DNA of 34,049 nucleotides, from positions 1-34,049 of the forward strand of contig JAHBZS010000051.1 of assembly GCA_019635285.1 (NCBI GenBank). Reading direction: 5' to 3'. Source of the DNA: Rubrivivax sp. (GTDB lineage: Bacteria; Pseudomonadota; Gammaproteobacteria; Burkholderiales; Burkholderiaceae_C). Of the stretch, positions 14,442 through 24,072 are shown piece by piece. A program made the position numbers and the translations under genes. The notes below the pieces were generated by a model. It was given only the letters and a program-made list of their open reading frames with translations, was not told the origin of the DNA and did no database searches. Numbering within the stretch: position 1 is the first letter of the stretch; each line of letters begins with the position of its first letter.

Positions 14442-16565
14442 GTGAACCTTCCCGACATCAATATTCGCTACGACGGTTGGGTCGTCCTGCTGTCCTTCCT
14501 CATCGCCAGCCTGGCGTCCTATGTGGCGCTGGACCTGGCCAAGCGGGTGCGCACGCACGACCGCGTCATCGCCGTCGGCTGGTGGCCCGCCGGGTCGGTG
14601 ACCATGGGCACCGGCATCTGGGCGATGCACTTCATCGGCATGCTGGCGCTGAAGCTGCCGTTCGCCGTCGGCTACGACTACGCGATCACCGCGCTGTCCT
14701 GGTTTGCCGGGGTGGCGGTGTCGGCGATCGCGCTGCACGTCGCCGGCTACCGCCGGCTCACGCCGCTCAGCCTGTGCACCGGCGCGCTGGTGATGGGCGC
14801 GGGCATCTGTGCGATGCACTACACCGGCATGCATGCGCTGAAGCTGGCGCCGGGCATCCGCTGGGACGTGGGCTGGGTCACGGTGTCGGTGGTCATTGCG
14901 GTGGTCGCGTCGGCGGTGGCGCTGATGATCTTCTTCGCGCTGCGCCGCCTGTCCGGCGCGCGGGCGCGCCACGCGCAGATCGCCGCCGCGCTGGTGATGG
15001 GCGCGGCCATCGCGGGCATGCACTACAGCGGCATGGCGGCGGCCGGTTTCCCGGCCGATGCGGTCTGCCTCTCCGCGGGCGAGCTGCGCGGCGACCGCCT
15101 GGGGCTGATGGTGGCGGTGGCCGCGCTGATGCTGATGGGCCTGACGCTGGTCACCTCGGTGCTCGACGCGCGCCTGCAGGGCCGCGCGGCGCAGCTGGCG
15201 TCGTCGCTGCGCGCGGCCAACGACGAGCTGGAGCAGGTCGCCTTTCGCGACGCGCTGACCGGCCTGGCCAACCGCAGCCTGTTCGACGACCGGGTGACGC
15301 ATGCCGTGGAGCGCTGCCGGGGCGACGGCAGCAGCCTGGCCGTGCTGTTCGTCAACCTCGACGGCTTCAAGCCGATCAACGATTCCTTCGGCCACGACGT
15401 GGGCGACGCGGTGCTGCGCGAGGTGGCGCGGCGGCTGTCGGCGCAGGCGCGCGCCATCGACACCGTGGCGCGCGTGGGCGGCGACGAGTTCGTGCTGCTG
15501 CTCGAAGGCGGCCCGGATGTCACGGTCACCGCGCAGGTGGCGCAGCGCATCATCGACGCGCTGCTGCTGCCCTTCGAGCTGGGCCAGCGCGGGCTGCGGC
15601 TGTCGTGCTCCATCGGCATCGCCCTGTTCCCCACGGACGGCCCGCGTGACCAGCTCATGCCGCATGCCGACTCGGCCATGCAGGCGGCCAAGCGTGGCGG
15701 CGGCGGCGGCTACGCCTTCTTCGAGCCGCACATGAACGCCGGCGTGCGCGAGCAGGTGGAGTTGCAGCGGGACCTGCACACGGCGCTCGAACAGGGCGGC
15801 CAGCTCGAACTGCACTACCAGCCCAAGGTGCGCAACAACGGCCGCGTCATCACCGGCGCCGAGGCGCTGGTGCGCTGGCGCCATCCGACGCGCGGCCTGC
15901 TCGCGCCGGGCCTGTTCATCCCGGTGGCCGAGCGTTTTGGCCTGATCACGGCGCTGGGCAGCTGGGTCATCGACGAGGCCTGCCGGCAGACGGCCGAATG
16001 GCTTGAGCTGGGGCTGCGCATCCGCGTGGCCATCAATCTGTCGGTGCACCAGCTGCGCCAGGACGACCTGGTCGACCGCATCGCCCAGGCCATCCGGCGC
16101 CACGCGCTCGACCCCAAGCTGCTGACCTTCGAGATCACCGAATCGGTGGCCATGGAGGACGCCGACTCCGCGTCGCGGGTGTTCGAGCGGCTCGGCCAGC
16201 TCGGCGTGCAGCTGTCCATCGACGACTTCGGCACCGGCTACTCCAGCCTGGCGTACCTGCGCCGGCTGCAGGCCGGGGAGCTGAAGATCGACCGTTCGTT
16301 CGTGCACGACCTGGAAAGCAGCGCCGACGCGCGCGCCATCGTGCAGGCGGTGGTGCAGCTGGCGCACGCGCTGGGCCTGTCGGTGGTGGCCGAAGGCGTG
16401 GAAACCGAAGGCCAGCGCGCGGTGCTGCAGCACCTGCGCTGCGACGAACTGCAGGGCTTCCTGTTCGCGCGGCCGATGACCGCGCAGACCATGGCCGAAT
16501 GGGCGGCCGACATCGACCGGCCCTCGGCGCTGAGCTTCAGCCCTTCGGCGTTTCTCGAAGCCTGA
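14442..16565 (+). CDS. MHYT-GGDEF-EAL cyclic-di-GMP signalling protein
   Basis: A 707 aa membrane protein. Residues 10-240 form an MHYT sensor with seven predicted membrane helices and three signature motifs: MHFIGM (62-67), MHYTGM (125-130) and MHYSGM (193-198). MHYT domains are proposed to bind copper and sense O2, CO or NO. The GGDEF domain has an intact GGDEF (346-350) and an RxxD inhibitory site (Arg337-Asp340) five residues before it. The EAL domain keeps EALVRW (474-479), the ITES, DDFGTGYSSL and EGVE motifs, and the Lys near 615. Both diguanylate cyclase and phosphodiesterase activities therefore look possible. The start is a GTG whose product MNLPDINIRYDGWVVLLS fits family N-termini. 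It is transcribed alone, ending 44 bp before metH. Confidence 0.93.
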   Translation: MNLPDINIRYDGWVVLLSFLIASLASYVALDLAKRVRTHDRVIAVGWWPAGSVTMGTGIWAMHFIGMLALKLPFAVGYDYAITALSWFAGVAVSAIALHVAGYRRLTPLSLCTGALVMGAGICAMHYTGMHALKLAPGIRWDVGWVTVSVVIAVVASAVALMIFFALRRLSGARARHAQIAAALVMGAAIAGMHYSGMAAAGFPADAVCLSAGELRGDRLGLMVAVAALMLMGLTLVTSVLDARLQGRAAQLASSLRAANDELEQVAFRDALTGLANRSLFDDRVTHAVERCRGDGSSLAVLFVNLDGFKPINDSFGHDVGDAVLREVARRLSAQARAIDTVARVGGDEFVLLLEGGPDVTVTAQVAQRIIDALLLPFELGQRGLRLSCSIGIALFPTDGPRDQLMPHADSAMQAAKRGGGGGYAFFEPHMNAGVREQVELQRDLHTALEQGGQLELHYQPKVRNNGRVITGAEALVRWRHPTRGLLAPGLFIPVAERFGLITALGSWVIDEACRQTAEWLELGLRIRVAINLSVHQLRQDDLVDRIAQAIRRHALDPKLLTFEITESVAMEDADSASRVFERLGQLGVQLSIDDFGTGYSSLAYLRRLQAGELKIDRSFVHDLESSADARAIVQAVVQLAHALGLSVVAEGVETEGQRAVLQHLRCDELQGFLFARPMTAQTMAEWAADIDRPSALSFSPSAFLEA

Positions 16566-16609: not shown

Positions 16610-17659
<1,050 letters not shown>

Positions 17660-17674
17660 AACGCCGCAGGTCAC

Positions 17675-17680
17675 TACAAT
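17675..17680 (+). promoter_or_regulatory. Candidate -10 box of the SAH riboswitch transcript
   Basis: TACAAT lies 7 bp before the first base of the riboswitch P1 stem (17688), exactly where a -10 box should be for a transcript starting with the aptamer. The -35 is poor. It gives the second metH gene its own promoter. Confidence 0.5.
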
Positions 17681-17687
17681 AGGGTGT

Positions 17688-17758
17688 CCCCAAGGAGCGC
17701 TGCGACGGCCGCACCGGCTGCCAGGCTTGGGAGCCCCCGTGTTCAACTGCGCTCACCC
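17688..17758 (+). promoter_or_regulatory. S-adenosylhomocysteine (SAH) riboswitch aptamer
   Basis: The sequence carries the conserved SAH riboswitch (ahcY motif, RF01057) blocks: GGAGCGCTGC (17694-17703), GCCAGGCT (17720-17727) and CAACTGCGCTCACCC (17744-17758). P1 pairs CCCAAG (17689-17694) with CTTGGG (17726-17731). The inner GCCG/CGGC hairpin forms P2. GAGCGC (17695-17700) pairs with GCGCTC (17749-17754) as the long-range helix or pseudoknot. Known members sit before ahcY, metH or metF and raise expression when SAH accumulates. Here it precedes the cobalamin half of split methionine synthase, matching that role. Confidence 0.88.
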
Positions 17759-17808
17759 GTCCTTCAGGCCGCGGTGAGCCCCGGCGGCCTTTGAATGAGG
17801 CTGCCGCC
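17751..17808 (+). promoter_or_regulatory. Putative expression platform of the SAH riboswitch
   Basis: Three competing helices can be drawn. Helix A pairs GCTCACC (17751-17757, the aptamer 3' edge) with GGTGAGC (17773-17779). Helix B pairs AGGCCGC (17766-17772) with GCGGCCT (17784-17790). Helix C pairs GGCGGC (17783-17788) with GCCGCC (17803-17808), enclosing the GAGG ribosome-binding site (17797-17800) and abutting the ATG. B and C cannot coexist, and A uses the B loop and the aptamer strand. This suggests control of translation initiation. The logic is inferred by hand pairing. Confidence 0.5.
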
Positions 17809-20538
<2,730 letters not shown>

Positions 20539-20702: not shown

Positions 20703-22493
20703 GTGACCAAGCGAAGCACCATTTCCACGGCCGCGGCGCCGCTGCTGTCGCGGCTGGCGCTGTGCGGCGTGCTGCTGCTCGCCGCCTGCGGCGGCGGGGG
20801 CGGCGCGGACGGCGAAAGCGCCAGCGGCACCGCGTCGGGCAGTGGCCCGGGCGCGGGCACGCCCGCGGCCAAGGAGATGCCGGCCTCGCGCGAGCAGGCG
20901 GCGCGCTTCCTGACGCAGGCCACCTTCGGGCCGACCGAAGCCGATGTCGACCGTGTGATGGCCATCGGCTACGCCGCCTGGATCGACGAGCAGCTGGCCA
21001 AGCCGGCCACGTCGCACCGCGCCTACTGGGAAGCGGCCGACGCCGCCATCCAGGCTGCCAGCCCGGGCAGCAACGCCTGGCAGGACCAGGTCTTCGAGTC
21101 GTTCTGGAAGCAGGCCCTCAGCGGCGAGGACCAGCTGCGCCAGCGCATGGCCTACGCGCTGTCGCAGATCTTCGTCATCTCGATGCAGGACGGCTCGGTG
21201 GGCGACAACCCGCGCGCCGTGGCGGCCTGGCTGGACATGCTCGGCGACAAGGGGCTGGGCCGCTACCGCGACCTGCTCGAGGCGGTGTCGCGCCATCCGC
21301 TGATGGGCATGTACCTGTCGCACATGCGCAACCAGAAGGCCGACCCGCGGACCGGCCGCGTGCCCGACGAGAACTACGCGCGCGAGGTCATGCAGCTGTT
21401 CTCCATCGGCCTGGTGGCGCTGAACCGAGACGGCACGGTGCGCAGCGACGGCGGCAAGCCGATCGACACCTATGGCCCCAGCGACATTGCCGGCCTGGCC
21501 AAGGTGTTCACCGGCTGGAGCTGGGCCTGCCCGGACTGGCCGGACAACAACTGCTTCTTCTGGGGCTCGGTCAGCGGCAACGCCGACCCCGACCGCAGCT
21601 TCAAGAGCATGCTCGCCTATCCGCAGTACCACGCGGTCGAAGAGAAGAGCTTCCTCGGCACGACCATCGCGGTGCAGGCCACGTCGGACCCGCAGGCCAG
21701 CCTGCGCGTGGCGCTGGACACCCTGGCCGCGCACCCCAATGTCGGCCCCTTCATCGGCAAGCAGCTGATCCAGCGGCTGGTGACCAGCAACCCCAGCCCG
21801 CAGTACGTGGCGGCGGTGGCCTCGGCCTTCGACGCCTCGGGCGGCGACCTGAAGGCCATGCTGCGCGCGGTGCTGATGCATCCGGAGGCGCGCGTCACGT
21901 CCGACAGCGCCGGCAAGCTGCGCGAGCCGGTGCTCAAGCTGTCGGCCTTCCTGCGCGCCTTCGGCTTCAGCTCCGACAGCGGCGCCTACCGCGTCGGCAA
22001 TACCGACAACCCGGGCACCGCGCTGGGCCAGACGCCGCTGCGCGCGCCTTCGGTCTTCAATTTCTACCGGCCGGGCTACGTGCCGCCGGGCACCCAGGCC
22101 GCGGCCGCGGCGCTGGCCGCGCCGGAGATGCAGATCGCCCACGAGACCACGGCGGCCGGCTACGTGAACTACATGCGCGACAACATCGCGCAGGGCGTCG
22201 GCCAGTGGAACAGCGCCACCAGCCGGCGCGACCTGCAGGCCGACTACAGCGCCGAGCTGGCGCTGGCCGAGCAGCCCGCGGCGCTGGTCGAGCGCGTCAA
22301 CGCCAAGCTGCTGCTGGGCGCCATGCCGGCCGAACTGAAGGCCGAGATCCAGGGCGCGATCGAGAAGATGGCCATCCCGGCGCTGCGCAGCGATGCGTCG
22401 AACCAGCGGCAGGTCAACGATGCCAAGCGGGCGCGCGTCAACGCGGCGATCCTGCTGGCCGTCGTGTCCCCTGAGTTCCAAGTTCAGAAGTAG
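20703..22493 (+). CDS. DUF1800 domain lipoprotein
   Basis: A 596 aa protein starting at GTG 20703. The N-terminus has a lipoprotein signal: basic residues, a hydrophobic core, then LAAC with Cys29, followed by a Gly/Ser-rich linker. The DUF1800 body starts at ASREQAARFLTQATFGPTEADVDRV (about residue 61) and includes RVPDENYAREVMQLFSIGL (about 218-236) and a late PSVFNFYRPGY segment. DUF1800 proteins are secreted and of unknown function. They are commonly encoded next to DUF1501 proteins, as here (31-bp gap), so the pair is probably one operon. It is predicted to be anchored to an envelope membrane. Confidence 0.92.
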   Translation: MTKRSTISTAAAPLLSRLALCGVLLLAACGGGGGADGESASGTASGSGPGAGTPAAKEMPASREQAARFLTQATFGPTEADVDRVMAIGYAAWIDEQLAKPATSHRAYWEAADAAIQAASPGSNAWQDQVFESFWKQALSGEDQLRQRMAYALSQIFVISMQDGSVGDNPRAVAAWLDMLGDKGLGRYRDLLEAVSRHPLMGMYLSHMRNQKADPRTGRVPDENYAREVMQLFSIGLVALNRDGTVRSDGGKPIDTYGPSDIAGLAKVFTGWSWACPDWPDNNCFFWGSVSGNADPDRSFKSMLAYPQYHAVEEKSFLGTTIAVQATSDPQASLRVALDTLAAHPNVGPFIGKQLIQRLVTSNPSPQYVAAVASAFDASGGDLKAMLRAVLMHPEARVTSDSAGKLREPVLKLSAFLRAFGFSSDSGAYRVGNTDNPGTALGQTPLRAPSVFNFYRPGYVPPGTQAAAAALAAPEMQIAHETTAAGYVNYMRDNIAQGVGQWNSATSRRDLQADYSAELALAEQPAALVERVNAKLLLGAMPAELKAEIQGAIEKMAIPALRSDASNQRQVNDAKRARVNAAILLAVVSPEFQVQK

Positions 22494-22524
22494 TCCACCC
22501 CACGGCCTTCGGCTGCCCCCCATC

Positions 22525-24072
22525 ATGAGCCACCACGATGCCTCCCGCCGCCTGTTCCTGCGCCATGCCGGGGCCATGGCCTCGCTGCTCGGCCCGGCCG
22601 CGGCGCCCCTGGCGCTGAACCTGTCGGCGCTGGGCACCGCCGCGGCGCAGGCCGCGCCCGACTACAAGGCGCTGGTGTGCCTGTTCCTGTTCGGCGGCAA
22701 CGACGCGCTGAACATGGTGCTGCCCACCGACAGCGCGTCCTGGGCCAACTACGGCGCGGTGCGCAACCAGGCGCCGGATTCGATCGCGCTGCTCGCGCCG
22801 GGCACGGCGCCCAACCCCGGCGCGGCTGCGGGCTCGCCGGCGCGGCTGGGCGGGGTGCTGCCGATCCTGCCGACGCGCGCGCAAGGCCGCAGCTTCGCGC
22901 TGCATCCGGCGATGGGCAGCCTGCAGACGCTGTTCAACAACGACAAGCGGCTGGCCATCCTGCCCAACATCGGCCCGCTGATCATGCCGACCACCAAGGC
23001 GCAGTACGGCCAGAGCGCGCACCCCAAGCCGGCCAGCCTGTTCTCGCACAACGACCAGGCCAACACCTGGCAGGCGCTGGCGCCCGAAGGTGCCACGCGC
23101 GGCTGGGGCGGCCGCATGGGCGACGTGCTGGCGTCGATGAACGCGCGCCCGGTGTTCACGGCCATCTCCGCCGCCGGCAACGCGGTCTGGCTGGCCGGCG
23201 ACAGCGTGCAGCAGTACCAGGTCAGCGGCAACGGCGCGATCCGCATGGGCACCGACGGCAGCGGCCGCGTCTTCGGCTCGGCCGATGTCGGCGCGGCGCT
23301 GCAGCGCATCGCCGCGTCCACGCGCGGCACGCACGTGTTCGAGCGCGACCTGGCGGCGCTGGGCCGCCGCTCCATCGACGCCGAGACGGCGTTGCGCACC
23401 GCCTTGAAGCCGCCCAGCGACGCGCTGTTCGGCACCGCGCCCGGCAGCGGCAGCTACAACGCCAGCAGCGACCCGAAGCTGCAATACGACCACCCACTGA
23501 CCGGCGCCAAGGCCTTCAACGCGCTGGCCCAGCAGCTGCAGATCGTGGCGCGGCTGATCGACGCCAGCAGCGCCGCCGGGGTGCAGGCGCGGCGCCAGGT
23601 GTTCTTCGTCAGCCTGGGCGGCTTCGACACGCACGACAACCAGAACCGCAGCCATGCCGACCTGATGGCCAGGCTGGCCCACGCCTTGAGCTACTTCGAT
23701 GCCACGCTCGGCGCGATGGGCGCGCGCGATAGGGTCACGACCTTCACCGCTTCGGACTTCGGCCGCACCTTCACCAGCAACGGCGACGGCACCGACCACG
23801 GCTGGGGCGCGCACCATTTCGTGCTGGGCGGCGCGGTGCGCGGCGGCGACCTGTACGGCAACTTCCCGGTGCTCGGCGCGAAGAACGCCAACAACAACAA
23901 CTTCGATGCCAGCCCCAACCAGATCGGCAACGGCGCGCTGCTGCCCGAGACCTCGGTAGACCAGCTGGGCGCGACGCTGGGCCGCTGGTTCGGCCTGAGC
24001 GACGGCCAGCTGCTGGACCTGTTTCCCCACCTGGCGAACTACAGCCAGCGCAACCTGGGCTTCATGGCGTAG
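22525..24072 (+). CDS. DUF1501 domain protein with Tat signal
   Basis: A 515 aa protein beginning MSHHDASRRLFLRHAGAMAS. The SRRLFLR segment (residues 7-13) matches the twin-arginine motif and a hydrophobic stretch follows, so export as a folded protein is expected. The DUF1501 body starts near YKALVCLFLFGGNDALNMVLP and has SLGGFDTHDNQNRSH and SDFGRTFTSNGDGTDHGWG, which recall the metal-binding motifs of the alkaline phosphatase/sulfatase superfamily. Function is unknown. It follows its DUF1800 partner by 31 bp; longer upstream starts overlap that gene and are rejected. Its last 11 bp overlap the end of convergent comM. Confidence 0.92.
   Translation: MSHHDASRRLFLRHAGAMASLLGPAAAPLALNLSALGTAAAQAAPDYKALVCLFLFGGNDALNMVLPTDSASWANYGAVRNQAPDSIALLAPGTAPNPGAAAGSPARLGGVLPILPTRAQGRSFALHPAMGSLQTLFNNDKRLAILPNIGPLIMPTTKAQYGQSAHPKPASLFSHNDQANTWQALAPEGATRGWGGRMGDVLASMNARPVFTAISAAGNAVWLAGDSVQQYQVSGNGAIRMGTDGSGRVFGSADVGAALQRIAASTRGTHVFERDLAALGRRSIDAETALRTALKPPSDALFGTAPGSGSYNASSDPKLQYDHPLTGAKAFNALAQQLQIVARLIDASSAAGVQARRQVFFVSLGGFDTHDNQNRSHADLMARLAHALSYFDATLGAMGARDRVTTFTASDFGRTFTSNGDGTDHGWGAHHFVLGGAVRGGDLYGNFPVLGAKNANNNNFDASPNQIGNGALLPETSVDQLGATLGRWFGLSDGQLLDLFPHLANYSQRNLGFMA

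Follow-up and report, generated by a model that had tools for sequence, protein, structure and literature searches.

We found that the leader of metH2 in the window (the whole 34,049-nucleotide stretch of Rubrivivax sp. DNA that was analysed) is rather likely to be an SAH-activated translational riboswitch working by strand exchange, with the switching itself predicted. An extra conserved hairpin, present in many copies of this riboswitch, probably passes the signal to the translation start. The riboswitch class, reportedly first described in a 2008 paper, and its link with metH are already known, and the expression platform is the less familiar part. The leader holds an aptamer, a promoter-like box and three possible helices (A, B and C); among relatives, the pairing of helix B is pair-specific, and helix A occurs in both of the platform types that we distinguish below. 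The features are the following:

16610..17659, plus strand: metH1, the homocysteine S-methyltransferase half of methionine synthase (domain match)
17675..17680, plus strand: TACAAT, the probable −10 box of a promoter for metH2 (read from the sequence)
17686..17761, plus strand: SAH riboswitch aptamer, RF01057 (covariance-model match, 59.1 bits)
17751..17757, plus strand: aptamer 3′ strand, which is also the 5′ arm of helix A (Rfam match, folding)
17766..17772, plus strand: 5′ arm of helix B, the antisequester hairpin (folding, partner-swap tests)
17773..17779, plus strand: 3′ arm of helix A, GGTGAGC, which is the SD sequence in compact relatives
17782..17791, plus strand: 5′ arm of hairpin C in its best register (folding)
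17784..17790, plus strand: 3′ arm of helix B (folding, partner-swap tests)
17797..17806, plus strand: 3′ arm of hairpin C in its best register, beginning with the SD GAGG at 17797-17800 (folding)
17809..20538, plus strand: metH2, the pterin-binding, B12-binding and activation domains of methionine synthase (domain matches)

The sequence-only reading had placed an SAH aptamer before metH, and the covariance search confirmed this observation: the RF01057 match exceeds the gathering score of 37, covers all 78 model positions (1-78) and is the sole Rfam match in the window at gathering thresholds. The aptamer precedes a gene of the SAM cycle, as judged by the metH2 domains, and lies 26 nt 3′ of metH1 and 47 nt 5′ of the metH2 ATG (17809); a second RF01057 copy in the same genome precedes ahcY. 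RF01057 was matched in 293 of the 299 genomes sampled from the bacterial family, with two matches in most of those listed, and in 58 of the 60 genomes of a genus sample. SAH is the predicted ligand, which the window aptamer would bind in preference to SAM.

The TACAAT box predicts a transcript start at about 17687, which is the aptamer 5′ end, and of 99 metH-linked entries (a few duplicate genomes included), 91 carry a TA.AAT motif in the 25 nt or so that precede the aptamer. A generic −35/−10 scan of 17560-17960 found no promoter. The box in the window, together with the motif at the same place in relatives, suggests that metH2 probably has its own transcript beginning with the aptamer. Methionine synthase is split here, and the riboswitch, which lies between its two parts (16610-17809), could thus set metH2 apart from metH1. 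A metH1 match ending within 40 nt of the aptamer was also found in L149, L250, L251, L013 and L063; metH1 was visible in 18 of the 99 entries, in which the flanks are often only 400 nt. An MHYT-GGDEF-EAL signalling protein is encoded just 5′ of metH1 (14442-16565), and an open reading frame with a DUF1501 match occupies 22393-24072.

In the mechanism we propose, the promoter directly 5′ of the aptamer would start the metH2 mRNA, so that its leader would serve as an SAH sensor. In the absence of SAH, GCUCACC, the aptamer 3′ strand, would pair with GGUGAGC (helix A), occupying the 5′ arm of helix B, and the free B 3′ arm would pair with the pre-ATG region (helix C), thereby burying the SD GAGG and turning translation off. 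With SAH, the aptamer would retain GCUCACC, helix B would form once its 3′ arm is transcribed, and, by withholding this arm from helix C, it would turn translation on. The SAH-on direction fits the anatomy of the leader; we infer both this direction and the co-transcriptional trapping of helix B.

The platforms of relatives were compared in 90 metH2 upstream regions of the bacterial family, comprising the window and 89 from the best 91 rows (148 of 150 genomes matched); G107 was left out, and the set is not a random draw. The aptamer was present in 79 of these regions. By a regex rule, 49 of the 79 have a compact platform, 26 an extended one like that of the window and 4 neither; the rule also assigns to the compact class platforms that have a GTGA close to the ATG by chance (L315, L377), and judged by eye about 31 of the 79 are extended. 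In a typical compact platform, the aptamer 3′ strand GCUCACCUG pairs with CAGGUGAGC directly 5′ of the ATG, hiding the SD; examples are Variovorax (L032) and two Acidovorax (L037, L039). Extended platforms, for instance those of Albitalea terrae (L031) and Mitsuaria chitosanitabida (L035), retain GGUGAG at the edge of the helix B loop, 17-58 nt before the start by the regex rule; in the window the distance to the ATG is 30 nt. Most of the genus sample is compact, the extended platforms there being those of the window, L149, L177, L201 and L206. In the metH leaders of L348 and L379, both from one genus, GGUGAG is absent, and the aptamer strand CATCGAT is complementary to ATCGATG, which includes the start codon.

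The loop lengths of extended platforms differ, and an alignment did not hold helix B in register. Pairing was assessed by a partner-swap test, in which each 5′ arm is paired with the downstream strand of the same sequence and the resulting duplex energy is compared with the energies obtained when partners are exchanged between sequences. The first set started from 33 metH platforms with GGUG at least 14 nt before the ATG, of which 29 remained when repeats (L018, L227, L259, L257) were dropped. As 23 of the 29 match a search pattern fixing the aptamer strand and GCGGTGA, helix A and part of the B 5′ arm were selected in these, and the B 3′ arm and helix C were not. Many pattern matches were due to chance; 20 were fetched by eye, and tblastn then sorted metH-linked from ahcY-linked ones. 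A further set held 24 extended platforms with anchors picked by eye (23 for helix C, for which L328 has no room), and a reduced set held 17, about one per genus-like group with four from the window's genus. For L232, L226 and L017, the start was moved to the next ATG in the CDS-rank and equilibrium-ensemble computations; the partner-swap (29 platforms), anti-SD, mini-ORF and nascent-fold tests used their earlier starts.

Helices A and B are perfect complements just as had been read from the sequence, with computed energies of −10.8 kcal/mol for GCTCACC/GGTGAGC and −13.8 kcal/mol for AGGCCGC/GCGGCCT. Helix B is a hairpin with GGUGAG at its loop, and its arms are matched within each sequence: in permutations that ignore relatedness (only the 17-platform set is thinned), none of 5000 was as good as the true pairing in the 29 platforms, 1 of 20000 in the reduced set and none of 20000 in the 24 further platforms. 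It also surpassed letter shuffles at 0.05 or below in 23 of 29. Compensating changes in helix B, which the sequence-only reading had left to be sought among relatives, are kept in extended platforms, where both arms change together (CCACGG/CCGTGG, GCTGCGG/CCGCAGC, GGTCGCGG/CCGCGGCC and the AGGCCGC/GCGGCCT of the window). Helix B thus behaves as a conserved antisequester.

These data also bear on plain direct occlusion, in which helix A alone would matter, as in compact relatives, and helices B and C would be GC-rich by-products. Such a reading draws on the presence of helix A in both platform types, on the weak support for helix C described below and on a weaker, ungapped-length test, in which helix B did better than shuffled sequence at 0.05 in just 12 of 29 platforms (median 0.07); however, helix B passes the partner-swap test in two sets, and the window's GGUGAG is 30 nt away from the ATG, so that we consider it improbable.

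Helix A beats letter shuffles at 0.05 in 25 of 29 platforms, and 276 of 5000 partner-swap permutations were as good; the core of its 5′ arm is fixed by the aptamer, and covariation is therefore hardly expected. In the unbound ensembles, 23 of 29 platforms and 19 of 24 in the further set have at least five expected A pairs, as befits an anti-aptamer helix. A and B have no core-arm nucleotides in common. The two helices exclude each other because the free-fold extension of A (17758-17759/17770-17771 and 17761-17762/17767-17768) uses the B 5′ arm and because the core helices are mutually pseudoknotted.

Helix C was borne out in part. The arms first proposed, GGCGGC/GCCGCC, are complementary (−10.0 kcal/mol), but the best register is a different one (17782-17791/17797-17806, −18.6 kcal/mol), which buries the SD GAGG in the stem. 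In the extended platforms of relatives, where its covariation had been looked for, C is not consistently conserved: in the set of 29, 792 of 5000 partner-swap permutations were as good and only 3 of 26 were better than letter shuffles, which gives no support, and in the further set 587 of 20000 permutations were as good. When the energy of pairing between the B 3′ arm and the sequence just before the ATG was ranked against stretches of the same CDS, the mean rank was 0.258 in the 29 platforms (9 at 0.05 or below; 0.0 for the window), 0.269 in the reduced 17 (2 at 0.05 or below; KS p 0.0026) and 0.304 in the further set (4 of 23; KS p 0.0085). Helix C is thus enriched before the ATG, only modestly beyond chance, and its covariation is not convincing. 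It is strong where the pre-ATG sequence approximates GAGGCYGCC (the window, L149, L306, L317, L365 and L308) and uneven elsewhere. The SD at its usual place has a mean strength of −3.0 (n = 29) or −3.4 kcal/mol (n = 24) in extended platforms vs. −6.1 kcal/mol (n = 61) in compact ones, which indicates that helix C often has little SD to hide.

The same rank test for helix C on ahcY platforms gave no enrichment (the mean rank is 0.41, and 9 of 76 platforms reach 0.05 or below). Another conserved helix was observed in the SAH riboswitches of L014 (G000:C89:45886-45963) and 75 other ahcY-linked loci, where the post-aptamer strand CCTGCAC pairs with GTGCAGG upstream of the SD. It beats letter shuffles at 0.05 or below in 69 of the 76, with the variants CCCGCAC/GTGCGGG and CCTGTAC/GTACAGG.

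The minimum free energy (MFE) structure of 17686-17830 contains helix A and the best-register C. In folds of nascent RNA that ended with the B 3′ arm, a free aptamer strand gave helix A in 21 of 29 platforms, including the window, and helix B in 8, including L149 and L031; a blocked aptamer strand, which mimics the ligand-bound state, gave helix B in 26 of 29. The bound-state equilibrium computed with 20 nt of CDS gave another picture: at least five expected B pairs in 9 of 29 and 5 of 24 platforms, and persistence of C in 21 of 29 and 15 of 24. In the window itself, blocking the aptamer strand leaves C in place (9.9 expected pairs vs. 0.0 for B), contrary to what had been anticipated for this fold, and the SD accessibility is 0.01 in both states, so the equilibrium folds alone show no switching. 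For L149, the fetched relative nearest in MetH2, the corresponding values were 9.2 pairs for B and 0.4 for C, with the SD accessibility rising from 0.25 to 0.38. With helix B forced, −10..+3 gained more than 0.1 in accessibility in 16 of 29 platforms and lost as much in 1.

With 6 nt of CDS, helix B is the bound-state MFE in 21 of 53 platforms, one has no B, and for the remaining 31 the direct-path barrier from B to the MFE has a median of 13.3 kcal/mol (range 2.8-26.4). The window belongs to the latter, with B 2.3 kcal/mol above the bound MFE and a barrier of 13.4 kcal/mol, a value which, as direct paths overestimate barriers, goes no further than allowing B to be trapped. Several platforms, among them L031, L035, L225, L240 and L372, are dominated by B with 6 nt of CDS and by C with 20 nt, thus indicating a delicate balance that depends on the stretch folded. 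Since C beats B at equilibrium in the window even with the aptamer strand blocked, the switch logic needs helix B to form first, co-transcriptionally, and then to be trapped. The logic put forward in the sequence-only reading is consistent with the RF01057 match and the covarying helix B of extended relatives and at odds with the equilibrium, which favours C over B in the bound state; it would therefore stand as a kinetic rather than an equilibrium model.

The persistence of C at equilibrium would also suit a different role for this hairpin. GGUGAG (17773-17778) might still be the working SD, with C, lying between it and the ATG, shortening the distance to about five unpaired bases; SAH would then free GGUGAG from helix A, and C would be folded in both states and would help. 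In phage T4 gene 25, a hairpin between the SD and the ATG likewise shortens the spacing. GGUGAG is indeed the strongest anti-SD match, with a mean of −7.6 kcal/mol vs. −3.0 kcal/mol at the usual place (n = 29), and its accessibility grows from 0.07 to 0.39 upon blocking the aptamer strand; 17 of 29 platforms gain more than 0.2, and 1 loses as much. Nevertheless, the pair-specific conservation of helix B, which half-hides GGUGAG, would be unexplained, pairing with the aptamer strand would conserve GGUGAG anyway, and the window and several relatives have GAGG at the normal SD distance inside C. Because of the unexplained B conservation and the GAGG of the window, we rate this arrangement lower and regard it as unlikely. 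If it were true, the riboswitch would act on a remote, hairpin-bridged SD.

Some other riboswitches act by transcription attenuation, and an intrinsic or Rho-dependent stop might replace translational control here as well. A search for intrinsic terminators at 17560-17960 found none, no U tract follows C, and C ends at the ATG, which makes attenuation a very unlikely mode of action for this leader. Two other candidates near the start were rejected. A mini-ORF (ATG AGG CTG CCG CCA TGA, 17795-17812) overlaps the metH2 ATG and is also found in L149, but an ATG-started frame with the same overlap occurs in only 6 of 29 extended platforms, near chance given ATGA by a rough, uncomputed estimate. As an upstream in-frame start near GGUGAG, the window offers only a TTG at 17791, with none consistent in relatives.

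Returning to the SAH-activated strand exchange, one aptamer before orthologous metH genes appears to work through either of two platforms. One sequesters the SD directly; the other exchanges strands among three helices, the former SD would there have turned into a switch strand, and GGUGAG has an outside chance of being an SD bridged by C. This provides a natural series, in which the same aptamer and gene come with the compact or the extended platform depending on the genus, allowing one to test the passage from direct occlusion to strand exchange and the need for kinetic control where the off hairpin has the greater stability.

As regards known systems, the window shares with the RF01057 SAH riboswitch an aptamer scoring above the curated threshold and the context of a SAM-cycle gene; its platform is of the extended A/B/C type, whereas the 78-position model spans the aptamer and not the platform. 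An SAH riboswitch upstream of metH has been published for Comamonadaceae (PMC4239095), with the same riboswitch class and target gene in related bacteria, but the main text portion consulted gives no expression platform. We met no description of the extended SAH platform in the literature, covered mostly at the level of titles and abstracts and including PMC2864571, which is weak evidence of novelty. Pairs of sequester and antisequester hairpins under kinetic control belong to general riboswitch knowledge (PMC10907184, portion consulted). Just as in the add adenine riboswitch described there, the hairpins proposed here would be mutually exclusive, the ligand would turn translation on, and the control would be kinetic; the add aptamer is unrelated, however, and in the window the strand that pairs with the aptamer resembles the SD of compact relatives.
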